IMG/VR virus record: IMGVR_UViG_3300021379_001501
Span: 1-23,240 of that record
DNA length: 23,240 bases
Strand: one strand, 5' to 3'
Origin: a virus
How positions within the stretch are numbered: the stretch's first letter is position 1; each line of letters starts with the position of its first letter. Position numbers and translations under genes: made by a program. Under the pieces are notes generated by a model. The model saw only the letters and a list, made by a program, of their open reading frames with translations, was not told the DNA's origin and did not search any database. Shown here piece after piece: positions 2,465 to 13,252 of this stretch.

Positions 2465-5278
2465 CTACTTTATATAATTTGCAATTTTTCTAGCTCTGGA
2501 TTTATTACCATATTTTTCCATCGCCATTTTTTCTACTTCTTGCTTGACTTGTTTTGTATTATATTTAGGGTTCATTTCTCTAACGATTTCTCCCATTTCT
2601 TTTGCATCTTTTTTATCTGCATTTTCAATGATTGTGTTGATTTCGTTAATCTCTTCCCTTTTCATAATTTTATACGCAAGGTCAACTAACTTAGGTAGTG
2701 GAAGTTTTTCCATTTTAGACTTATTAGAATCATTAACCTTATCGTATATTTGAACAACTGCAGATGCAGTAAACAAATCAACCATAGTCCCTTTAATTTT
2801 CTTTGCCTGTTTGTTATCAACGATATCTCTCATATCATCGATAATAGATTCTGTAAGTTGGAAATCTTCCATGCAATGTTGCGCCATTAAAGGACGGCCA
2901 ATCATTTGTTTTTTGCGAGACTTCGCAATTTTCAAAGTTTTCTTATCTTTAATTTTCATTGGTGGAAGTTGAGAAGTTGAAATGATTGACTTTGCACCCT
3001 TCTCATCAGAAGCAGTTCCAACAACCTTGTTATCATCAGCGGTATCATATACAATAAACGGTTCCTTTAACTCCACGAAAAGTTCTACTTCTTCTTTCAG
3101 TCCAAGTTTCTTTGCAAGGTCTGCAGCATCTTTACCCATTCCGTAAGAGTTGTCTTTAATTCTCTGTTTAAACCACTTTTTAATTACTGGACGAGCATCA
3201 CCCTTTGGATTTCTCTTACCAGCAGCATAAAGGTCGTCAAACAATTCATCGTCACCCAACAGACTATAAAGTGCATCTGTTGCGTCATCTCCCTCTTTTC
3301 CAAGAGTAATTGGTTTAGACATCAATTTCTTCAATGCAGTCACTTCGGATGACTTGTCAGCAAATGCCCAAGTACCTTCTTGCAAATCTTCATTTGTTAA
3401 TTGAATTGCTTTATAAACTGCAGGATCATCAGAAAGCCCTTTTGCAATCTTTTCAATTGTTTTAACAATCTGTGTCATATTCCCACCCTTCCAACGAGGG
3501 TCGTTTAGAACACCAAACGCCATCTTGTATTGTTTTTTGGAATATTTTTTCTCATTAAGATTTTCTAAGTCTTCAAATATCTTGGACGCTTGACGAAGGT
3601 TAATAGTATTAATCGTACCCATATCATCTAGAGTTCTAAATCTAATACCTCTTCTATCTAATTGCAATTCAACATCATATACTTTTCCGTCCTTTCCACG
3701 AATAGAACGTATAATTCCATTTTTAAGTTTTGGATTGCTACCCTTAATTTTTGGAGCAGCTTCTTGTAATTCTTCTTTGACAAATTTTGTTAGTGACACA
3801 CCCATATCTCCCCATGCTAGTGAAGCATCTCCACCTTTTCTACTGTATAAGAAAAATTTAGTTCTGTTGCGAGGATCGGTAGCAGAACCAAGAGAAACTT
3901 TTTCTACGTCATACTTTGCACTCTTCGACTTACCCTTTACAACCAAAGTCTCCTTATGTCCCTTTTTCATCGATGAATCAAAATGCACAGTTACTTTATC
4001 ACCCTTCTTCAATTTTTCAAAATCCTTACGAGCAACCAACATCTCACTTAAAACTTCTTCTTGATATAAATCCCACTCTTCGTGAGACATTGTTCCAACT
4101 TCTTCTTTATACATATTGAGTTCATATCTTTTGTTGTCCAAGTTTGCAACTTGAATTTGGACACCTCTAGATTTACCTCTCTTATCAGTACCCATTAAAC
4201 GATATGAATTTGTTTTTCCACTGGATGGTTTTCTAGGGCCCATAGCAACTTTATCATCAATTTCTTCTGGGTCAATTTCGATTCCAAACTTTTTCTTAGC
4301 AAAATCATATGCATGTTTCATTGCACTAGAAAAATCTTTATGATATAGTTCATATCCAGTTGACGATTTAGCCTCTTCCAACTCTTCTCCAACAAGTCTT
4401 TTTGCATACGCATCAAACGACTTTTGATCTTCTACAGAGTCTTTGCCTTTACCTTTACCTTGGAAAAGTTCTCTCCATGCCTTTCCGTTCTTATATTTTT
4501 TGAAGTATGCTTGCAGTTTAGCAGCAGTTTCCCTGTCAATATTTACAATTTCTTTATCATCATAGGATAAACTTCCAATTGCAGCTTTGCCGGCTTTAAC
4601 TTCCCAACGTTCTTCTAAAATTTTATTAAAAATTTCTTCAGTGGTAATATCTTCTTTTTTATATCCAAGTTTCTTCAATTTCTCTTTAAATGCAGACTGT
4701 CTACCATCAAATTGTTTTTCGTTAGAAAGGTCTTTTTTACCTTGGTCTTTATACATTAATTTCTGGAGTTTTTCTTTAAAGGCCTTTGTTCTACCGTCCA
4801 ACTTGTATTCTTCTTTTTCTACTTCATGATATCCTTTACCATCACAATGGTCACACCCTTTACCTTCGCATTCTGGACATTCAACCTTTTCCATTTCTTC
4901 TTTTTTGATTTCTATAGAATCTTTTACTGCATTTTCTAAGTGTCCTTTATCATCACACATATCGCATCCTTTACCTTCACACTTAACGCAAGGAATCTTT
5001 CCTTCTTTTACCGCCTTCGCAACTTTATCAGAAATCGTGACAGGGTACTCCTTATCGCCGAATTTGAATTTTTTCTTGCCCGCTGATTTTGCGGCACTAG
5101 CAGCCCCAATAAAGTCTGCGACATCTTCTTCCCTTACCTTTTTTGCAACATCCTTACTGATAGTAACAGGATACTCTTTATCGCCAAGTTTGAATTTTTT
5201 CTTACCAGCAGCTTGGGCGGCAGAAGCGGCCCCAATAAAGGCAGCAATATCTTCAATTGTCATATTCTTTTTAAACAT
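2465..5278 (-). CDS. 937-residue lysine-rich mosaic virion-type polyprotein
   Basis: No enzyme is recognised. The N-terminus holds two 42-residue tandem repeats (9-50 and 51-92). Two CxxCxGxGCxxC zinc modules follow (C97/C100/C105/C108 and C134/C137/C142/C145), like the DnaJ cysteine-rich motif. Next are two copies of an xDGRxxAFKEKLxKL helix (160-177 and 190-207). The remaining roughly 700 residues are small basic domains separated by L-x-E linkers ending near 223, 302, 412, 506, 576, 634, 739 and 810, for example ELEE/AKSS and LQEGTWAF. T4-type prohead protease cuts after (L/I)-x-E, so a family of internal peptides is likely. A large single structural protein is the alternative. It has its own late-promoter variant and a good ribosome-binding site. 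Confidence 0.85.
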   Translation of the reverse strand: MFKKNMTIEDIAAFIGAASAAQAAGKKKFKLGDKEYPVTISKDVAKKVREEDVADFIGAASAAKSAGKKKFKFGDKEYPVTISDKVAKAVKEGKIPCVKCEGKGCDMCDDKGHLENAVKDSIEIKKEEMEKVECPECEGKGCDHCDGKGYHEVEKEEYKLDGRTKAFKEKLQKLMYKDQGKKDLSNEKQFDGRQSAFKEKLKKLGYKKEDITTEEIFNKILEERWEVKAGKAAIGSLSYDDKEIVNIDRETAAKLQAYFKKYKNGKAWRELFQGKGKGKDSVEDQKSFDAYAKRLVGEELEEAKSSTGYELYHKDFSSAMKHAYDFAKKKFGIEIDPEEIDDKVAMGPRKPSSGKTNSYRLMGTDKRGKSRGVQIQVANLDNKRYELNMYKEEVGTMSHEEWDLYQEEVLSEMLVARKDFEKLKKGDKVTVHFDSSMKKGHKETLVVKGKSKSAKYDVEKVSLGSATDPRNRTKFFLYSRKGGDASLAWGDMGVSLTKFVKEELQEAAPKIKGSNPKLKNGIIRSIRGKDGKVYDVELQLDRRGIRFRTLDDMGTINTINLRQASKIFEDLENLNEKKYSKKQYKMAFGVLNDPRWKGGNMTQIVKTIEKIAKGLSDDPAVYKAIQLTNEDLQEGTWAFADKSSEVTALKKLMSKPITLGKEGDDATDALYSLLGDDELFDDLYAAGKRNPKGDARPVIKKWFKQRIKDNSYGMGKDAADLAKKLGLKEEVELFVELKEPFIVYDTADDNKVVGTASDEKGAKSIISTSQLPPMKIKDKKTLKIAKSRKKQMIGRPLMAQHCMEDFQLTESIIDDMRDIVDNKQAKKIKGTMVDLFTASAVVQIYDKVNDSNKSKMEKLPLPKLVDLAYKIMKREEINEINTIIENADKKDAKEMGEIVREMNPKYNTKQVKQEVEKMAMEKYGNKSRARKIANYIK
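4658..4801 (-). repeat. Duplicated DGR-AFKEKL helix repeat
   Basis: Two 18-codon copies at 4748-4801 and 4658-4711 share xDGRxxAFKEKLxKLxYK. The phase is 30 codons. Confidence 0.8.
4844..4990 (-). repeat. Duplicated zinc-finger-like CxxCxGxGCxxC modules
   Basis: The first module spans 4955-4990 and the second 4844-4879, 37 codons apart. Each has four cysteines and glycines in the DnaJ-like CxxCxGxG spacing. The second is followed by the complete DGKG; the first has DDKG. Confidence 0.85.
5003..5254 (-). repeat. Tandem 126-bp coding repeat (2 copies)
   Basis: Codons 9-50 and 51-92 of the 937-residue protein tile exactly end to end. Both contain FIGAASAA, AGKKKFK, GDKEYPVTIS and VAK. The copies are at 5129-5254 and 5003-5128. 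Confidence 0.9.
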
Positions 5279-5299: not shown

Positions 5300-5307
5300 T
5301 ATTTATC
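5300..5307 (-). promoter_or_regulatory. Late-promoter variant GATAAATA
   Basis: GATAAATA fits the NATAAATA late-promoter form reported for T4-like cyanophages. It lies between the 783-residue gene (TAG stop 5307-5309) and the 937-residue gene (ATG at 5278), about 22 bases before the start. GGAG (ribosome-binding site) lies seven bases before that ATG. Confidence 0.5.
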
Positions 5308-7658
5308 TATTTTTTAACCTTGGCCCACAAATCCGCATCACCAGTAGTTCTCGTTTTTCCACCTGTAATAAATGAATTCACCCTTGCAAACGCCCATTGT
5401 TGTGGAGTGGTTCCTGGCCTATGACCACCTTTCCATGCGGCCATACCTCTATCATATACCTTTTTCAGAATTTCATATGAAATGCCAGATTTATCTGCCT
5501 TCTTAACTAGTCCAGCAATCTTAGCTTCGTCTAGTGTCTCCGCACTATCTTCACCAAACATTTGCTTGTATTTCTTAGTATATTGTGAAGGTTTCGTTTT
5601 TGCATCTGCATCGCCAGGCGCTGGTTTATAAGAAGAGTCTTTTCCATCTGGCTTAGATGCCTGTTTTTTAAAGTGGGCAGCTCTTTTATCTTTAGTTGAC
5701 TTGGACATCTCATCACCATCAGCATCTTTTGCATAATACTTTTTTGGTTGAGATCCCTCTTTGTCTTTGATATCTGGGTCTTGAGTTGTCTTTCTTTCAA
5801 AAAGAAATTGAGAAAAACTTTTTATCTCTGCATCTTCGTTAACTGCCTTCATCACATCTTGCCAACTCATTTTATATGCTAGTTTGTCTCCAATCTTTCT
5901 CGCAAGCTTACGGCGAGCCGCAATCTTATCTTTTAAGGTTGGTTCAATAACATCTTTTTTCTTTTTAACTTTTACTGTTTTGGAAGACCCTCTTGGTCTG
6001 TGTAACCATGCAATCTCTTCTAAATCTTCTGTAGAATAACCAAGTTTCTTTTTCAGAATATTCATTGCAGTTGCCATCTTAACTTGCATCCACTCATCAC
6101 CGTATCTTTTCTTAAAATCATCATCTGGCAAATCTTTTGCAATCTTTTCTAAATCCTTTTCTCTTTCTGGATTCATCTTAAAATCTTCTGGAACACAATT
6201 AGGAACATCTTTACCACTCTTCTTTTTCATTCCTACTTGTTTGTAGCCAGGCCAACAATCTTCTATTTTATTACCGTCTTTGTCATATTTACCAGACTTC
6301 TTTTTAGCGATTGCAATTGCAGCCTGTTGGGCTCGAGATACACCTTCATCTTTTCCAGTAATCCTATCACGGAAATCTTTTTTAACTTCACCATCAGTAA
6401 CTTTCTCAACATCTTTAATAATCTTTGGATTTTTTAACATTTTGCGTAGGTTATTTTTAACTTCCCCAGCACTACTTGCATCTACATAAAAAGTGGGCAA
6501 TCCTTCAATATCTACTTGATAATTCGCTTCCTCAAGACTTTCATATTTCAATTCTTTACTTGATGTAGAAAAATTCTTTTTACGCATTATTGTTTTGTGA
6601 ACAACCTCAAAATCACCATTCTTATAATTGATAACTACAGGTAAATTTAAGTTGGTTGACATGTCTTTGAGAACTGCTTCGATGTCGGGGTTCGCCTTGA
6701 TCTGAGAACCCTTTTTCTTCTGAATCTTTTTGAAAAACTTTTGAAGTTCCGCTACTTTAATTTCTGGGTCATTTCTTTTATCATTCATTCTGTCAACAAA
6801 ATGTCTTGTAAATGTAACATCAATATCATACTTTGCAAGCATTCTATCTGCGAATTTTTCTAAATCGTCTATTTGTTTTTGAGACACTTCTTCATTGTTG
6901 TATATTCTTTTATACACAGTTGCATAATCGTCATCGATACCGATTTTAAAATCCAACTCTTTATAAACAGATTCTATTAACATTTCATCTTCGATATCTT
7001 CTACAATCTCTACAAATTCTGTTTCAATAAAACGTGAAAAGTCCGAATTAGTTGCTTCAAGAAACTCTGACAATTCTTCACTTATATTCATCGCCTTTCT
7101 AAGAGTATCAAATAATTTTTTTCCGTTAGACTTTTCAAACGCAGATGGTAAACCATTTTTAAAACTATCATAGTCATTTGCAGCAGCTGCAGCTCTCATC
7201 TTAGATGCAGACATTCCAGTAACACCTTCTGCATCTGGATCTCTTTCTCCTGCAGAGACTACTTCGATACCACCTTTAAAATCATAGAAACCATGACTTC
7301 CTTTTTTACCATTGTATTTGTTAAGTGTAGTTTTAAATTCTGTAACTCTATCTCCACCGACAACCATAATACATCTCTTATAACCCATATCATATAGCAT
7401 AGGCGCAATCATAAATGCAGTTTTTGCATTTCTATTAGAGATGATATTACGAGAATATTTTGGAAACATCTTTTTCATAAAACCAACTTTAGTTTTATGA
7501 TCTAAAGGATCCTTTTTGTCATTTTGCGAATGACTAGGAAATACCATAAAATCGGCGCCTTCTTTTTTGGCAACCGATGCAAGTTTTTCTATAAGTTTTT
7601 CGTGTCCTGTGGTTGGGGGATTAAACCTACCAAATGTAAAAACTACTGTATCTTTCAT
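5307..7658 (-). CDS. 783-residue mosaic protein: N-terminal nucleotidylyltransferase plus virion-type modules
   Basis: Residues 1-190 form a cytidylyltransferase/NMN-adenylyltransferase-like domain: VVFTFGRFNPPTTGH (TTGH at 16-19, the HxGH site with the first His replaced) and GMSASKMR (148-155, the ISxTxxR site). Further modules follow: one with FTRHFVDRMNDKRND (283-297), a basic one with DCWPGYKQVGMKKKSG and NCVPE (467-491), a lysine-rich one with SYKPAPGDADAKTKP (676-690), and a C-terminal one with RGMAAWKGGHRPGTTPQQWA (737-756). L-x-E sites at linkers (ending 198, 377, 548, 621, 711) suggest prohead-protease processing. IKSFSQFLFE at 612-621 is an internal copy of the capsid-targeting peptide. 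Substrate unknown; NAD or sugar-nucleotide metabolism is possible. Confidence 0.88.
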   Translation of the reverse strand: MKDTVVFTFGRFNPPTTGHEKLIEKLASVAKKEGADFMVFPSHSQNDKKDPLDHKTKVGFMKKMFPKYSRNIISNRNAKTAFMIAPMLYDMGYKRCIMVVGGDRVTEFKTTLNKYNGKKGSHGFYDFKGGIEVVSAGERDPDAEGVTGMSASKMRAAAAANDYDSFKNGLPSAFEKSNGKKLFDTLRKAMNISEELSEFLEATNSDFSRFIETEFVEIVEDIEDEMLIESVYKELDFKIGIDDDYATVYKRIYNNEEVSQKQIDDLEKFADRMLAKYDIDVTFTRHFVDRMNDKRNDPEIKVAELQKFFKKIQKKKGSQIKANPDIEAVLKDMSTNLNLPVVINYKNGDFEVVHKTIMRKKNFSTSSKELKYESLEEANYQVDIEGLPTFYVDASSAGEVKNNLRKMLKNPKIIKDVEKVTDGEVKKDFRDRITGKDEGVSRAQQAAIAIAKKKSGKYDKDGNKIEDCWPGYKQVGMKKKSGKDVPNCVPEDFKMNPEREKDLEKIAKDLPDDDFKKRYGDEWMQVKMATAMNILKKKLGYSTEDLEEIAWLHRPRGSSKTVKVKKKKDVIEPTLKDKIAARRKLARKIGDKLAYKMSWQDVMKAVNEDAEIKSFSQFLFERKTTQDPDIKDKEGSQPKKYYAKDADGDEMSKSTKDKRAAHFKKQASKPDGKDSSYKPAPGDADAKTKPSQYTKKYKQMFGEDSAETLDEAKIAGLVKKADKSGISYEILKKVYDRGMAAWKGGHRPGTTPQQWAFARVNSFITGGKTRTTGDADLWAKVKK
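5796..5825 (-). other. Internal capsid-targeting-like decapeptide
   Basis: Codons 612-621 of the 783-residue protein encode IKSFSQFLFE, matching the pattern K-(T/S)-(F/Y)-x-x-(F/Y)-(I/L)-x-E seen at the N-termini of neighbouring proteins. It lies between two modules and may mark an old gene fusion. Confidence 0.55.
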
Positions 7659-8041
7659 GACCCTGCTCTTGTAATTTTAGTGATTCTTTCAATCTGTTGA
7701 TTGATAATAGCCTCTCTGTTGGGCCAGTAAATATACTCTTTTTCCTTATTTTTCATTAAATTATTTAGAAGAGGCAAAATCAGATTCTCCACCTCTTGTA
7801 ATTTATTTGCGACAATAACCTTTTCGTTTTCATAGTAATCTTTTACTGTAGAAACTTCATCTAACATACTACCAAGTCGGTCTGCAAGATTATCCATTTT
7901 ATATTCTAAAAGTTTTACGCTCTCGCCTGTAGTCTCCAACTGAGAAGTCATCTCTTCAGTCTGTACAGATGTATTAGTTAATCCTTTAAGATCATCTTCA
8001 TCTACCGCTGTAAAACCAAAATCTATATCGTCTTGTGTCAT
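7655..8041 (-). CDS. Coiled-coil protein, conserved in marine T4-like phages
   Basis: A 128-residue protein. An acidic N-terminus, MTQDDIDFGFTAVDEDDL, is followed by a long predicted coiled coil (about residues 30-100). The C-terminal motif KEKEYIYWPNREAIINQQIE is one I associate with marine T4-like phages. No enzymatic motif is visible. It starts at an ATGA overlap with the cupin-like gene and its stop overlaps the nucleotidylyltransferase gene in the same way. It may be a scaffold or virion component, but this is inference from context. Confidence 0.78.
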   Translation of the reverse strand: MTQDDIDFGFTAVDEDDLKGLTNTSVQTEEMTSQLETTGESVKLLEYKMDNLADRLGSMLDEVSTVKDYYENEKVIVANKLQEVENLILPLLNNLMKNKEKEYIYWPNREAIINQQIERITKITRAGS

Positions 8042-8319
8042 GTGTCAAACCTATGAATTTTTATTTCTAATTTCCCACAGTCATATCCCTTTATGACTCT
8101 ATGAAAAACTCCTTTGTTTATTTTTAACATCATTCCTTCCAAGAGAGGGAAAGGAAATTCGTCATCATATTGAAAATGCCAATCATCAGATTTTAATATT
8201 TCAACCAATCTAGTTTCATTATCTCTGTGCCACACTAAATCATTTACATCAGCATCACCAGAAAATGTTCTCTTTACTGTTCTTTCATCAATTACTTCTT
8301 CAATATATGGAACCATCAT
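8038..8319 (-). CDS. Cupin-like small protein
   Basis: A 93-residue protein with the strand pattern of a single cupin barrel: VWHRDNETRLVEILKSDDWH (about 29-48), a glycine turn GMMLKIN, then GVFHRVIKG (about 70-78). Histidines H31, H48 and H73 could line a metal site, but the canonical cupin motif is not complete. The role is unknown; phage cupin-like proteins may bind sugars or small metabolites. Two adjacent ATGs at 8319 and 8316 follow AGGTGA, and either may be used. Its stop overlaps the next gene as ATGA. Confidence 0.75.
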   Translation of the reverse strand: MMVPYIEEVIDERTVKRTFSGDADVNDLVWHRDNETRLVEILKSDDWHFQYDDEFPFPLLEGMMLKINKGVFHRVIKGYDCGKLEIKIHRFDT

Positions 8320-8329
8320 AAATCACCTA

Positions 8330-8863
8330 TTACCAAAAAAAGTTACCACCACCACTTAATCCAAGTTGTTTTGCGTACTTTGGAAGTCTACATGCCCAAT
8401 AGCCTGGTTTTGTCTTATCGTTCTTTTGGTCGCAATTATGTCTTGCAACAAAACTCTTTCTTGCTTCTGGGTCATTAATCTTTGCAGTCAATCCTGTTGT
8501 ATCCCCAAAGGAAACCTTAATTACATTTCCCTTATCATTTTTAACATATACATAATACTTTTTCTTACCACCCCTCTTTGGAGAATTCAATTCCACATCT
8601 TCTTCTTCCATCAAAGGACAGTCCAAAGGAACATATTCCTGTTCCTCAAACATCGCCCACTCACCAATATCTGTTTGTAACATTTCTATGTCGTAAAGGT
8701 CAAACTCGACTTTACCCTCTTCGAATAATCTTCTTGCAACTCTAAAGGTTTCATAAAAATTATTTGAACCTAGACGAAAGACATTATCAATTAGTGGTAT
8801 TTCATTCTGTCTATGATACAACACCATTTCTTCTATATTTTGAAACTGTTTATAAGTTTTCAT
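8330..8863 (-). CDS. 177-residue protein with C-terminal virion-type domain
   Basis: The open frame reaches 8941, but the ATG at 8863 is chosen. It overlaps the phosphatase stop as ATGA, has GGAG about 11 bases upstream, and yields MKTYKQFQNIEEM, again like the T4 capsid-targeting leader with I-E-E at 10-12. The middle is acidic. The C-terminal domain (about 98-177) has KKKYYVYVKNDKGNVIKVSF, then FVARHNCDQ and YWACRLPKY, with a terminal GGGNFFW. I associate that domain with small proteins near the portal and protease genes of cyanophages. Its function is unknown. The two conserved cysteines suggest metal binding or a structural role. Confidence 0.75.
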   Translation of the reverse strand: MKTYKQFQNIEEMVLYHRQNEIPLIDNVFRLGSNNFYETFRVARRLFEEGKVEFDLYDIEMLQTDIGEWAMFEEQEYVPLDCPLMEEEDVELNSPKRGGKKKYYVYVKNDKGNVIKVSFGDTTGLTAKINDPEARKSFVARHNCDQKNDKTKPGYWACRLPKYAKQLGLSGGGNFFW

Positions 8864-9363
8864 CTCAATAACTTCTCCAATTCTCTCATAGTCTTCGCTG
8901 GATTGATATGACGAATACCAATACCACCTTTCGCTTCCCATTCTTTTATATTCTTAGGATAATCATCAATTAGAATATTTGGTTTATCATTTGTTGTAGC
9001 AAATTTCTGTTTATCTGCTCGTTGGACTAAATGTATTTTTCCATTCAATCTCAAATTTTTTGAAATCCAAAATCTTTTACCTTTTTGTGAGTTCGAATCT
9101 CTTTTTGAATATGCAGATAAAATATTTGCATTATATTTGTTTAACATTCTCCACATTTTTTCTGCACCAGGCATCCATGGAAGGGTATGCCAAAAATCTT
9201 TTTTAGATTTAATATCTTCCCATCTTTCTTCTTTATCAGTTGATGCAAAGTCTTTATTAAATGCATCTGTATATCCGCCTGTAAAATTACAAAGGACTTC
9301 ATCCATATCGCAGTAAATTTCTGGCATTTCTTTTTCAAGAATATACTGATTGAATGTTTTCAT
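8860..9363 (-). CDS. HAD-superfamily phosphatase (5'-nucleotidase-like), capsid-targeting N-terminus
   Basis: A 167-residue HAD phosphohydrolase. Motif I is YCDMDEVLCNF with nucleophile D19 and acid/base D21, and motif II is the serine in NILSAYS (S83). Motif III could be K127 in TNDKPN, and motif IV is LIDDYPKN (D133/D134), typical of 5'(3')-deoxyribonucleotidase-like proteins. The first ten residues MKTFNQYILE match T4 IPIII (MKTYQEFIAE) at M1, K2, T3, I8 and E10, with aromatic residues at 4 and 7. I-x-E ends at residue 10, so cleavage would leave an intact enzyme starting eight residues before D19. Its place beside a kinase and a ligase-like gene suggests end healing. It could instead be a plain nucleotidase. 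Confidence 0.85.
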   Translation of the reverse strand: MKTFNQYILEKEMPEIYCDMDEVLCNFTGGYTDAFNKDFASTDKEERWEDIKSKKDFWHTLPWMPGAEKMWRMLNKYNANILSAYSKRDSNSQKGKRFWISKNLRLNGKIHLVQRADKQKFATTNDKPNILIDDYPKNIKEWEAKGGIGIRHINPAKTMRELEKLLR

Positions 9364-9653
9364 TTCATCAAACCTTTTATTATTTTTAATGCCTTTTTAC
9401 CATCTGGGTGGTTCGGGTTAATACTGACTTCATCTCCGTTAACAAAATCAGAAATATTAGCTGACTTGCCAAGAGCAGTAATTGCTTTGTGTAATGGATC
9501 TTTTGGATCGTATCTTCGCTCAAAATCGGATTTTCCTCTTAGTTCTACCCAACTCTTTTCCTTAGTATCCCACATTTTAAGAACATCTTGCCCTTTGCCA
9601 CGAATCAATTTAAGTTTGATGCCTTCAGAAAGATACTGAGTAAATCCTAACAT
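9360..9653 (-). CDS. 97-residue protein with capsid-targeting-like N-terminus
   Basis: Begins MLGFTQYLSE, close to the T4 internal-protein leader MKTYQEFIAE, with L-x-E ending at residue 10. The remainder is a small basic domain with KMWDTKEKSWVELRGKSDFE at about 27-46 and a C-terminal NPNHPDGKKALKIIKGLMK. I recognise it only as a conserved marine-phage type of protein. If cut by prohead protease after residue 10, an 87-residue basic internal protein would remain. Start and stop both overlap their neighbours (TAATG, ATGA). Confidence 0.8.
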   Translation of the reverse strand: MLGFTQYLSEGIKLKLIRGKGQDVLKMWDTKEKSWVELRGKSDFERRYDPKDPLHKAITALGKSANISDFVNGDEVSINPNHPDGKKALKIIKGLMK

Positions 9654-10597
9654 TAGTCATCATCCATTTCGTCCATGATACTATAATCATAAACAGCATC
9701 AATGTAATCCTTGGCCTTTGTCACTTTAGAAACTACCCACGCCTCCATTTCATATTCGTCATTTTGTGGATTATCCACTTCTTCCATAAGTGCCTCTGCA
9801 AGTTCTGTAGACTTATTAGAAAGAATGATAAGTTGTCTCAACATCATCTCCAAACTATCTTGTGCAAACTCTGCGTCTTCTCTAATTAGTTCTTCTTTAA
9901 TTCCTCTGGCAGCCTTTTCTGCAGAAATCCATTTTTTTGCGACACTTTTAGTTGGTTTTTTCTTTGTCCATGTTCCAATGGTTCTATATGCCCTCATAAC
10001 ATCTCTTTCAAAATCAGCACCATCGGAGTTATCAATTACAAACATTTTTGATTTAAATGCAGACTGGAATTTTCCAATGTTTCCTTGAACACCTTTCCAC
10101 ATAGATTCAACTTCATTGTCTGGAAGACTTCTCGCCCTTAACCTATTTCGGTTTAATGCGGTATCTAAATCGGTGTTTACAAAAATCATTGCGGTTTCAT
10201 AACCCATCGCTTCTAACTTGTCTTTTTGTTTTTTAATTTTATCATAATCTTTTCCAGTACCATCGATAACAAGTCCAAGTCTACCCTTCATATATCCCGC
10301 CTGTTGCATCGCAGTAAGTGCCTTTGCTTTACCTCTTACTTGTTGTCCAAGGTCAGAGAAAATATCGTCTGGATTTCCTTTATCCAATCCAGCCTTATCT
10401 AATGCCCTTTCAAATGCAGGATCAGAGTTTACAACTCTCAATCCAAAAGAAGTAAGTGCAGTTCTACCTACAATAAAGGATTTGCCAGAACCTGGCCCAC
10501 CAGCGAGAAACACCGCCTTAAAGATGCCTGGGTCGTGTATGCCCTCATTTAAAGACTCTTCGTTCCTAAGATTTTCGATTATATTTTTTATATCCAT
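9653..10597 (-). CDS. P-loop kinase, zeta-toxin/polynucleotide-kinase-like, with virion-type C-terminal module
   Basis: A 314-residue protein. Walker A is GGPGSGKS at 33-40. NSDPAFE (57-63) fits the phosphoacceptor loop of zeta-toxin and PNK-type kinases. LVIDGTGKDYDK has D112, and the arginine-rich lid NRNRLRAR lies near 149-156. The phosphate acceptor (nucleic-acid 5' end, nucleotide or UDP-sugar) is not known. After I-R-E (238-240) comes a separate C-terminal helical module (about 241-305) with EAWVVSKVTKAKDYIDAVYD, a block I associate with marine phage virion proteins. The N-terminus has L-N-E ending at residue 18, another possible prohead-protease site. It overlaps the next gene as TAATG. 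Confidence 0.85.
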   Translation of the reverse strand: MDIKNIIENLRNEESLNEGIHDPGIFKAVFLAGGPGSGKSFIVGRTALTSFGLRVVNSDPAFERALDKAGLDKGNPDDIFSDLGQQVRGKAKALTAMQQAGYMKGRLGLVIDGTGKDYDKIKKQKDKLEAMGYETAMIFVNTDLDTALNRNRLRARSLPDNEVESMWKGVQGNIGKFQSAFKSKMFVIDNSDGADFERDVMRAYRTIGTWTKKKPTKSVAKKWISAEKAARGIKEELIREDAEFAQDSLEMMLRQLIILSNKSTELAEALMEEVDNPQNDEYEMEAWVVSKVTKAKDYIDAVYDYSIMDEMDDD

Positions 10598-10598
10598 T

Positions 10599-11852
10599 TT
10601 ACTTATCCCATGCCTTTGCTGCAGTAAAGTTATTGTAACTAAATTCCATTCGATCTACAATTTTGACGGCATTACCATTCGTATCAATTGCAACATAACC
10701 TTCTGGATTTGTCACTTCGTAACCGTTTTTTGTACGAACAAAAATCTGCGTTAATTGTTTAACACTATTTAGTTTATTTATAATGAGAGACTTGGCGTCA
10801 ATCATTTCTTCCATAAAATCGACAATTGCATATGCAACACTGTCTAATTTAATTAACTGCTTTACTGCATCATCTCTAATTCTCTCTTTATCTTTTCTTG
10901 CACCTTCGGTTTTTAATTTTGCAATTACCTTTTCGTCAAAAAACTTTTTAACATACATCGAATAGTCTAGATTTTTCATATTCTTTGTAGAAATATTCTG
11001 TCCTTCACGGATGTATGTATTGAGATAGGTTTTAAAACTTGCACCGGCGAGTCCTTTAATAAAAGTTTTATTTTGAAGTTGCATAAATGTTTTAAAATCA
11101 TTCGCCTTGATTTTCTTAAATTTTCTACCAACTTGAGACATTTGACCATTGAATGTTTTTAGTTCAGACGAAGTAAATTTTGCAGAACCAGAAACATCTT
11201 TATATGTTGCATCATCCATCCACACAGAAGATGTTTTCTTTAGCCCAGAAATATTAACACCAAAAGAAGCTGTCATTGATGGTAAATCTTTTCCAGAATA
11301 TGTTGTATGCCAAACAACACCGATTTTTGCAGCGTTGATCGCCTTTCCTAAATCAGAGTCTTTCTGAACTGCGTACATCAATGTATTTTGTTGAAATGTT
11401 AGATATGTCTCGCCATCAAGTGTTTTTTCCGACACATCGTCAGTAAACATCAAGTCGCCTTGAATTACCCCTTTGATTCCTAACTTGGAAAATTCTTGAA
11501 ATGCAACAGTAAATTTTGATTTTAAGGCAGGACTAAGTTTTGTATCTGCAGCAATCTCTGCCGTACTTTTATATAACAACGGAGTTTCATTAAATACAGA
11601 TTTTTTTGCAACAAAAAACTTGCCGTCACTTGGGTCAATTCCAGCGAATATGGCAGGAGCACCGTCCCATTTAACTGTCATGTTTACTTTAGCATCTGAG
11701 TTTCCAGCCAACATGTCTCTTAAAGATAAAAGAAATCGAACAGCGGCTCGACCACCATCGATTCCAAAGTTTAAAATTTCATCCTCAAGATGTTCTAGGT
11801 GTAAATTTTTTCCACCCTTTGATTCATTAAGATATTTTTTAAATGATTGCAT
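10599..11852 (-). CDS. Putative covalent nucleotidyltransferase (ATP-dependent ligase-like), capsid-targeting N-terminus
   Basis: A 417-residue protein with motifs in the order of DNA/RNA ligases and capping enzymes. Motif I is KWDG (K61, the predicted AMP-lysine) and a KKS patch follows at 83-85. Motif III is like IQGDLMF (130-136), IIIa like GVVWHTTYSG (178-187), IV PEGYV (383-387) and V AVKIVDR with K397. About 195 mostly helical residues separate IIIa and IV, far more than in T4 ligases. The N-terminus MQSFKKYLNE resembles the T4 capsid-targeting peptide, with L-N-E ending at residue 10. It starts at a TAATG overlap and is followed by the P-loop kinase. Ligase activity is inferred from motifs alone. 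Confidence 0.72.
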   Translation of the reverse strand: MQSFKKYLNESKGGKNLHLEHLEDEILNFGIDGGRAAVRFLLSLRDMLAGNSDAKVNMTVKWDGAPAIFAGIDPSDGKFFVAKKSVFNETPLLYKSTAEIAADTKLSPALKSKFTVAFQEFSKLGIKGVIQGDLMFTDDVSEKTLDGETYLTFQQNTLMYAVQKDSDLGKAINAAKIGVVWHTTYSGKDLPSMTASFGVNISGLKKTSSVWMDDATYKDVSGSAKFTSSELKTFNGQMSQVGRKFKKIKANDFKTFMQLQNKTFIKGLAGASFKTYLNTYIREGQNISTKNMKNLDYSMYVKKFFDEKVIAKLKTEGARKDKERIRDDAVKQLIKLDSVAYAIVDFMEEMIDAKSLIINKLNSVKQLTQIFVRTKNGYEVTNPEGYVAIDTNGNAVKIVDRMEFSYNNFTAAKAWDK

Positions 11853-13213
11853 TAGTAAAGTTTCCCGAATGGCCCAAATATTTTCCCCTTCTTTTGGGCA
11901 AGATATGTTAAAGTTGTTAGTAAGTCATCTCTTTTTTCATCGTTTGTGATAGAGACAATTTCACACACCAAATGAAGTTGCATCAACTTACTATGAGCAT
12001 AATCTGGTCTAGATGTATTAAATACCGATACCACATTTTTTTGAAACTGGTTTTCGGTTATTCCTGTATATTGTTTTACTTTATTAAATTTATATAAGAA
12101 TCTATTATAATCATTCATAAATTCTTGTTCAGATGTAGGATAATTTTTATTATCATTGTCCCAAGTAAGACCTTCGTCTGTAAAAACTTTTCTGGCCATG
12201 TCTAAAGGAACCTTACCAAGTCTTGCAGAAGTCGCACCCAAGTCTGTCCCTTCGATTTTTAAATTATTAAAACCAGCACTATTTTGTCTGATTTGAAATT
12301 TAATTTTTCCCTTTTTGCCTTCTACGACAATTTTGGTATCTGAGTTAACAAACTCTCCATTACCTTTTGTTTTTAAATTTAGATCAATATCAGAAAGTTT
12401 GAAATTATATTCTTTATCATCGAAAATATCCATATTTTCTAGATTCACAAGTTCCCATTTTGCAGTTCTCCCAGACATCTTTTTTAAGGAAATACCTACA
12501 ATTCTTCTTTCATGGAACATATCTCTTAGAATAGCGTTGAATTCTTCTAGAGAAGTTACATCATCTAATACTTTTTCTTTTAAAGTATTTTTTACTTTGT
12601 TAAGGTCAGATACTAACCATATGTCTGCAGGGTTCCAAGTATCTTTTTTTGCAATACCATATTTTTGTTTGCAAATCCCAGTGATATAATCCATAAACCC
12701 ACCATCTCTGGAGTAGTGTCCATATCTAGTATTTCCTACTTCTCTATATGTTGTGAGTTGTTGTTGAAAGAATGTATTTTCCCATTCTTCGTTCATTGCA
12801 GGATATATCGCCTTCAGATCATTGCGATATAATTTCATAAATGCACCTTGATTAGTATACCCATTATTTTCAATACTTTTTTGTATTGCAAAAAGAGAGG
12901 CGAGTTCTTGCATCTGGGTAGTTTTCCCATCAGAACCGCCTCCCATTCCACTAAAGGGTGCTTTATCTATTTGTGTCCACTTATACCCATTAAAAATGGG
13001 AAGGTACTGGCCACTTTTTGTTAAAGAACTTGTAACTCTAGGTTGCGATTTGTCCTTCACCGCCCCAAGAAACTTTTTTACTTCTGGAGTCAATTGAACT
13101 ACGGCTTTTGATCTATCCGAAAACTTTAGTTCTTTTTTACCATTGATAACATCCGCAACCATATTCAAATATGGTTTTTCAAACTTTGCTTCTTTTGCCC
13201 CAAGGTTTGCCAA
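11852..13213 (-). CDS. 453-residue late protein, possible PD-(D/E)xK nuclease fold
   Basis: The 453-residue reading frame begins with TTG at 13213, supported by AAGGG seven bases upstream; the next in-frame ATG is codon 18. The family is not named by me with certainty. Several local patterns suggest a restriction-endonuclease-like core: a helix TTQMQELASLFAI with E103, then WNPADIWLV with D197, then GISLKK (S242-x-K244). An E, D, (S/E)-x-K order is what PD-(D/E)xK enzymes show, but the assignment is weak. It is the first gene after the late promoter, and its stop overlaps the ligase-like gene as TAATG. A structural role is the main alternative. Confidence 0.8.
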   Translation of the reverse strand: MANLGAKEAKFEKPYLNMVADVINGKKELKFSDRSKAVVQLTPEVKKFLGAVKDKSQPRVTSSLTKSGQYLPIFNGYKWTQIDKAPFSGMGGGSDGKTTQMQELASLFAIQKSIENNGYTNQGAFMKLYRNDLKAIYPAMNEEWENTFFQQQLTTYREVGNTRYGHYSRDGGFMDYITGICKQKYGIAKKDTWNPADIWLVSDLNKVKNTLKEKVLDDVTSLEEFNAILRDMFHERRIVGISLKKMSGRTAKWELVNLENMDIFDDKEYNFKLSDIDLNLKTKGNGEFVNSDTKIVVEGKKGKIKFQIRQNSAGFNNLKIEGTDLGATSARLGKVPLDMARKVFTDEGLTWDNDNKNYPTSEQEFMNDYNRFLYKFNKVKQYTGITENQFQKNVVSVFNTSRPDYAHSKLMQLHLVCEIVSITNDEKRDDLLTTLTYLAQKKGKIFGPFGKLY

Positions 13214-13244: not shown

Positions 13245-13252
13245 TATTTATA
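13245..13252 (-). promoter_or_regulatory. T4-type late promoter TATAAATA
   Basis: The minus strand reads TATAAATA, the exact T4 late-promoter octamer used by gp55/gp33/gp45-directed transcription. It sits in the 42-base gap between the oxygenase stop (13256) and the 453-residue gene (start 13213), so the start site would be near 13233. It is flanked by a 7-bp inverted repeat CCATTAT/ATAATGG (13241-13247 and 13262-13268). The octamer is AT-rich and can occur by chance; its position gives it weight. Confidence 0.7.

Follow-up and report, generated by a model that had tools for sequence, protein, structure and literature searches.

The 23,240-base stretch of viral DNA analyzed here (the window), which is the entire IMG/VR virus record IMGVR_UViG_3300021379_001501, is a fragment of a T4-like phage. 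It carries a cassette of genes whose products, predicted enzymes of different folds among them, begin with similar ten-residue leaders. These leaders are probably T4-type capsid-targeting sequences that would load a modular enzyme cargo into the phage head, from which it would be ejected with the DNA. In T4, the first ten residues of the internal protein IPIII suffice for packaging; residues 4 and 7 are the main determinants of targeting and residues 8 and 10 those of processing, and the prohead protease gp21 cleaves after (L/I)-x-E (PMC9026906). The positions used in T4 for targeting and cutting are those conserved in the leaders described here.

Three adjacent, non-homologous proteins of the window carry the strict form of the leader, M-x-x-[FYW]-x-x-[FYW]-[IL]-x-E (this and all other window features given below lie on the minus strand). 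The 417-residue DUF6267 protein (10599..11852; Pfam PF19782, E 2.8e-98) starts with MQSFKKYLNE (11823..11852), a putative capsid-targeting sequence with a predicted cut after residue 10. A 97-residue protein with no assigned function (9360..9653), which has 181 related stretches in viral contigs and no match in Pfam or PHROG at E 0.01, starts with MLGFTQYLSE (9624..9653). The third is a 167-residue NT5C-type HAD phosphatase (8860..9363; Pfam NT5C, E 1.4e-8; PHROG 5'-3' deoxyribonucleotidase, E 8e-34), with the leader MKTFNQYILE (9334..9363). As a preliminary description of this DNA had noticed, all three have aromatic residues at positions 4 and 7, I or L at 8 and E at 10. The T4 sequence to which it likened them, MKTYQEFIAE, does begin ipIII, and in the T4 record it begins ipII as well. 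The L-N-E that it had pointed out in the P-loop kinase encoded among these genes (314 residues, zeta toxin/polynucleotide kinase-like; 9653..10597; Pfam Zeta_toxin, E 1.4e-10) is present at residues 16-18, followed by G19 (10544..10597). The fourth leader that it proposed, MKTYKQFQNIEE (8828..8863) of the 177-residue protein (8330..8863), is imperfect: the aromatic residues at 4 and 7 are there, position 8 is Q, and a possible cut would fall after I-E-E at residues 10-12. It is the weaker case because of this Q and the out-of-register cut site. The 177-residue protein is the internal-ATG form of a 203-residue open reading frame (ORF); its relative in contig G010 begins MKSFRQFQNIEE.

In gene order and content the window is near Methylophilales phage Melnitz and bears a looser likeness to Pelagibacter phage HTVC008M, both classed as Kyanoviridae. 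The window has the strict motif in 3/30 called ORFs, against a mean of 0.00 and a maximum of 0 in 300 shuffles of their N-termini. With the shuffled means in brackets, the numbers of called ORFs elsewhere are 2/202 for Melnitz (0.02; one of the two is read from an internal TTG that lies three codons past the annotated start), 3/199 for cyanophage S-CREM2 (0.04) and 1/261 for S-SCSM1 (0.07). In a 50-kb control stretch of T4 the motif picks two of 67 coding sequences, ipII and ipIII, and misses ipI; the strict motif is therefore specific but not fully sensitive.

Relatives of the tagged proteins show which residues of the leader are kept. Loci encoding DUF6267 were taken from viral contigs with six search patterns, none of which lies within the leader; 80 loci were fetched, 76 had fitting spacing, and these gave 49 unique leader windows. 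E10 is found in 49/49, residue 8 is L in 43, F in three and I in three, residue 4 is F in 40/49, and residue 7 is F, Y, W, L, I, M or H in 39/49, while the variability of residues 2, 3, 5, 6, 7 and 9 amounts to 2.5-3.3 bits. Among the unanchored loci (5/80), L033, L034 and L042 bear leaders such as MHDFTDFLTE/A (the slash, here and below, stands after the E of the site), and in the other two, L024 and L049, the match begins within the gene. In 22 unique relatives of the 97-residue protein, residue 4 is F, Y or L, residue 7 is Y or F and residue 8 is I, L or M; E10-G11 is fixed, and residues 2, 3, 5 and 6 are variable (1.9-2.1 bits). This set is mildly biased because the leader itself was one of its six search patterns. 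In the kinase, E18-G19 is invariant in 12 aligned sequences and the sequence upstream differs. The leaders of its relatives include MIRFKRFLEE/G, MKSLHSFLTE/G and MDNFKEHLELME/G, with MKTFAELQE/G in Melnitz and MIPFILKE/G in HTVC008M.

Proteins with such leaders have been detected in the virions of related phages. Table 3 of PMC10665884 gives 52 virion-detected ORFs of the 219 in the S-CREM2 genome, and all three strict matches, ORF6 (SAM hydrolase, MKDFDSFLEE), ORF14 (APH/ChoK-like kinase, MKRFDAFLTE) and ORF154 (cytidylyltransferase, MKNFSSFLTE), are among them (3/3 against the background of 52/219; hypergeometric p 0.013). ORF14 has a GTG start, and the strict pattern without it gives 2/2 (p 0.06). 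ORF13 (MKDLHSFLTE) and ORF136 (MQTFSMFFSE) were also detected. When a broader pattern is applied to the first 14 residues of the 199 called ORFs, five detected proteins and one undetected protein match (Fisher p 0.004); within the first 30 residues the numbers are six and three (p 0.009). The sole strict match in S-SCSM1, the NMNAT ORF91 (MKSFLQFLKE), has a virion-protein label (48 proteins in the record have one; 45 are stated by PMC9602691). In S-SZBM1 the cytidylyltransferase, which begins MRFRQFIIEA, was detected in the virion (Table 1, PMC9146016), as was protein 139, which has no canonical leader; the leaderless neighbours 141 (a DUF6267 protein) and 142 were not. S-CRM01 has tags on the kinase PKN8 (MISFDQFLSE), on g129 (MKKLDQFLTE) and on a cytidylyltransferase (MKLFNQFFKE), with related leader forms on g131, g128 and g126. 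Kinases have been reported in S-CRM01 and S-TIM5 virions (PMC10665884), and the one in S-CRM01 is taken to be PKN8. The cytidylyltransferase family T4-GC190 was found in S-SM1 virions in the 2010 cyanophage comparison (PMC3037559).

A site of similar form is seen at an offset position in S-CREM2 ORF12 (L011, record positions 7704-10313), a virion-detected protein annotated as a Cas9-type nuclease, which has RFASFMAE/A near residues 18-25. The start of S-CRM01 g128, WAKWSRG...LSLDSFIKE/A, resembles it.

Leader-like sites also occur inside fused proteins. The 783-residue protein of the window (5307..7658), which according to domain and PHROG searches and block comparison has a cytidylyltransferase-like start and DUF5824 near its end, contains the leader-like SFSQFLFE at residues 614-621 (5796..5819). 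In contig G004 the module that follows this site is a separate protein starting MRDYKQIFLNE, and the 783-residue protein is probably a polyprotein. The blocks of the 937-residue protein (2465..5278) are separate or otherwise joined in relatives, and L-x-E sites lie near block ends. In these two proteins 13/30 block ends are at most 8 residues from (L/I)-x-E, against a mean of 5.2 with circular shifts (0/5,000 shifts reached 13), and with [LIVM] at the first position the count is 15/30 against 7.6 (p 0.0004); the ends of high-scoring segment pairs and L-x-E sites may have a common tendency to fall in E-rich linkers, an effect that the circular-shift null leaves in. Both proteins may be polyproteins cut by gp21. 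In locus L050, DUF6267 follows another domain in a single open frame, with the junction KLSFEQFIKE/DKAGKN, and in L249 and L259 the kinase stands in frame after other segments, with the junctions YIEE/G and MEE/G. To judge by these sites, by the relatives of the kinase and by the cyanophage enzymes, the phenomenon is wider than first noted, and in sequence the leader behaves as an address tag that can move between unrelated folds.

A 48,151-base contig (G001) is 99.98% identical to the window across its full length and reaches on into head genes, including a gp21 homologue. Its gp23 has DQLNE/APTS at the place of FLTE/AEIG in T4 gp23, and a cut after this L-N-E is predicted. Between the portal and gp21 genes (39348-39614 of G001; L211) lies the gene for an 88-residue, very basic protein (MHSFLEFLEDDLDE... 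/ MHSFLEFLEDDLDEAVKRK...), which looks like an internal-protein candidate. The T4-type late promoter motif TATAAATA (13245..13252) starts about 38 bases upstream of the first cassette gene, which encodes a 453-residue protein (phrog_1462; 11852..13213). In G001, late promoter motifs precede 8/53 called ORFs, those of gp22 and gp23 included. Melnitz and G010 also have a late promoter motif before their counterpart of the first cassette gene, where CTAAATA stands in HTVC008M. In S-CREM2, late motifs precede 12/50 detected against 10/149 undetected called ORFs (p 0.0017), among them ORF6, ORF15 and ORF154.

Two other virion-labelled proteins, S-CREM2 ORF160 (L008, record positions 128342-129235) and S-SCSM1 ORF97 (L009, record positions 93121-93306), share a stretch (GFTGAAAPEGPVAGYDPLM; GFTGSSAAEGPTAGYDPLM) that matches the S-CREM2 major capsid protein directly after its L-x-E (GFTGAAAPGGPNAGFDPVM), as if it were a copy of the capsid protein's inner arm.

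Several observations weigh against capsid targeting of these enzymes. HTVC008M has no strict motif in its 184 ORFs (shuffled mean 0.03), nor a relaxed form, and retains L-V-E and L-K-E. The 783-residue protein of the window starts MKDTVVFTFG, without a leader; its Melnitz counterpart starts MKKFSEIIEA. DUF6267 has no leader in Syn1, S-PM2, syn9, S-SZBM1 and S-CRM01. The phosphatase leader is retained only by near-identical relatives: the comparison covered the 21 of 25 loci that fit the pattern used for it, the 15 near-identical ones are uninformative on conservation, and diverged relatives do not keep the same form. The virion proteins of relatives that were checked include no DUF6267 protein, the missing protein 141 of S-SZBM1 being a case in point. 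The broader pattern in S-SCSM1 gives one detected and one undetected protein (p 0.33), an association that is non-significant because ORF30 bears a leader (MKTFKQFMSE) and no virion label. The authors of the S-CREM2 study leave it undecided whether the enzymes are packaged or are carried over in CsCl (PMC10665884). In the window, ATAAATA is not over-represented (6 against 11.1 expected), and CTAAATA occurs six times against 5.7 expected; since these counts are not raised, the promoter evidence consists of the placement before homologous first genes and the S-CREM2 association.

The expectations of the preliminary description fared unevenly in this light. Its proposed alignment of homologues agrees with it for residues 4, 8 and 10 of DUF6267 and residues 4, 7, 8 and 10 of the 97-residue family, the others varying, and disagrees for the diverged phosphatases. 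The pattern that it named as contrary, an enzyme core kept while the first ten residues vary freely, is seen in part, namely in DUF6267 of the five cyanophages and in the same phosphatases. The tag appears to be gained or lost by lineage, since the DUF6267 leader is absent from those five cyanophages and present in C48C1 (MMLDFKNFITE/Q) and Stenotrophomonas phage DLP6 (MMKFTQFLAE/S). Comparison gives good support to packaging and trimming as then proposed, through the conserved T4 positions, the virion detections in relatives, gp21 and gp23 in G001 and the late promoter motif; HTVC008M and the leaderless DUF6267 proteins do not fit.

The strongest of the other explanations, itself unlikely, accepts that the proteins are packaged and cut and makes them prohead-core or internal structural components finished after assembly, not effectors delivered to the host. 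In T4, gp21 likewise acts on core proteins, which contain several L-x-E sites (PMC9026906). Many such sites are present in the 783- and 937-residue proteins, and the 88-residue basic protein with a similar start adjoins gp21 in G001. Yet the DUF6267 protein, the kinase and the phosphatase retain catalytic-type motifs, and the tagged S-CREM2 proteins are annotated as diverse enzymes. A clearly less probable explanation is that the virion detections represent contamination and that the window proteins act in the infected cell only. The S-CREM2 authors consider carry-over possible (PMC10665884), and unique peptides are few (one for ORF13, three for ORF154); on the other hand, the leader, of which mass spectrometry makes no use, predicts detection in S-CREM2. 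Slightly less probable again is that the leaders serve as a short motif for some other interaction, such as binding to a common intracellular partner or to the tail, their L-x-E staying uncut. The cut N-termini of the tagged proteins are predicted from sequence, which leaves room for such a motif, but its most fixed residue is the E (49/49 in DUF6267), exactly the cutting residue of T4, and L-x-E recurs in gp23 of G001 and at fusion junctions. Chance N-terminal resemblance in an AT-rich genome, in which a short motif made of common residues such as F, K and I could arise, has a negligible probability: leaders that vary at free positions agree at functional ones, the tag is found on unrelated families in several phages, and a chance origin of the window leaders was rejected with 0 matches in 300 shuffles.

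If the leaders are capsid-targeting sequences, the following course of events can be proposed. Late in infection, the ten-residue leader would dock each enzyme in the prohead core. During prohead maturation, gp21 would cut after (L/I/F)-x-E, and the modules of the 783- and 937-residue proteins would probably be released as well, through cuts at internal L-x-E sites. The freed DUF6267 protein, kinase, HAD phosphatase and small 97-residue protein would remain in the head and reach the host together with the DNA. We infer the cutting of the tagged proteins, their presence in the head of this virus, their ejection and their action in the host. The leader would then provide a sequence rule for which proteins enter the heads of marine T4-like phages, and would turn doubtful virion-proteomics matches into a testable packaging prediction. 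It also suggests that ready-made enzymes are carried, able to act ahead of phage transcription, and that a gene can gain or lose the property of being packaged through a movable tag of ten residues.

The gene neighbourhood of the cassette is shared by S-SCSM1, S-SZBM1 and S-CRM01, and the 453-residue protein encoded by its first gene resembles by eye S-SCSM1 ORF90, which is labelled a virion protein. In Melnitz the 177-residue protein is fused to the cytidylyltransferase, and the kinase gene sits outside the corresponding position of the cassette. Also outside the cassette, Melnitz encodes a RimK-like ATP-grasp protein (L002, 82-1131) whose start resembles a leader (MTQKFSQFITEE) when it is read from an alternative TTG. 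The 937-residue protein of the window opens with two near-copies of the unit ADFIGAASAA-(Q/K)-(A/S)AGKKKFK-(L/F)-GDKEYPVTIS.

The nature of the cargo can be described in some detail. In DUF6267, KWDGAP, GDLM, EG-V and K-VD are invariant in 32 aligned sequences; KWDG, GDLM, EG-V and K-VD resemble motifs, KxDG among them, of the RNA/DNA ligase-type nucleotidyltransferases. The structure model (mean pLDDT 78) has no Foldseek match in the PDB, and the protein no sequence relative there, at E 0.001 or better. With VIA-align, RNA and DNA ligases occupy many rows: the Naegleria RNA ligase gives Z 7.4 (root-mean-square deviation 3.9, 179 residues aligned) and T4 RNA ligase 2 gives Z 6.6 (4.1, 170 aligned), values to be read against unrelated DnaK rows that reach 6.4, because of which the fold likeness is suggestive only. 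Motifs and weak fold similarity together suggest a ligase-like protein. A literature search found no paper naming DUF6267. For the kinase (mean pLDDT of the model 72; no relative by sequence in the PDB at E 0.01), zeta toxins are best by E-value among the best 50 Foldseek rows, a polynucleotide kinase is best by TM-score (0.72), and adenylate kinases are close (up to 0.66). Since a ligase-like protein, a kinase and a HAD phosphatase might between them both heal and seal ends, it is conceivable, if rather doubtful, that the virion carries its cargo as a kit for nucleic-acid repair, in which the ligase-like DUF6267 protein, an end-healing P-loop kinase and the phosphatase would be tagged and co-injected with the genome. 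Such a kit would heal and seal, ahead of any phage gene expression, the breaks that host defences introduce into tRNA or DNA. Loci L121 and L122 each encode a single polypeptide in which a P-loop kinase-like domain, beginning with the leader-like MLHFSEFNE, is joined at KLSEE or KLQEE to an NT5C-type phosphatase; this arrangement recalls the kinase-phosphatase of T4.

What appears here is a known T4 device on an enzyme cassette of marine T4-like phages, with conserved functional residues and the virion proteomes of relatives behind it. A literature search, mostly of titles, abstracts and passages, found no report that cyanophages or marine T4-like phages have a capsid-targeting sequence; a suggestion that such sequences let T4-like phages package various proteins has been made (PMC9026906). 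The cyanophage NMNAT or cytidylyltransferase and kinases detected or reported in virions of S-SCSM1, S-SZBM1, S-CREM2, S-SM1 and S-CRM01 are among the nearest published counterparts of the cargo, and the relevant passages of those papers mention neither a leader nor gp21 cutting. Polyvalent proteins of phages and conjugative elements are also multi-domain and predicted to be packaged and injected (PMC5512222); they are likened here by description, not by domain match, and differ in being processed mainly by built-in peptidases. In phiKZ and SPN3US, ejection proteins are trimmed by the prohead protease behind a short motif whose last residue is E (PMC9026906), but protease and motif have diverged, and the likeness is drawn without comparison with the ten-residue T4 pattern. 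T4 itself provides an enzyme with a similar fate, the ADP-ribosyltransferase Alt, which is packaged with the prohead core and, after trimming by gp21, ejected; it differs in having a seven-residue propeptide plus C-terminal processing (PMC9026906), and it too is likened without sequence comparison. A further likeness is to the gp21-cut sequence of T4 IPI, IPII and IPIII, which has the same ten-residue pattern, with aromatic residues at 4 and 7, I or L at 8 and E at 10. In T4 this leader tags small internal proteins, whereas in the window it tags enzymes of several folds, with leader-like internal copies in fused proteins and with differences between lineages.

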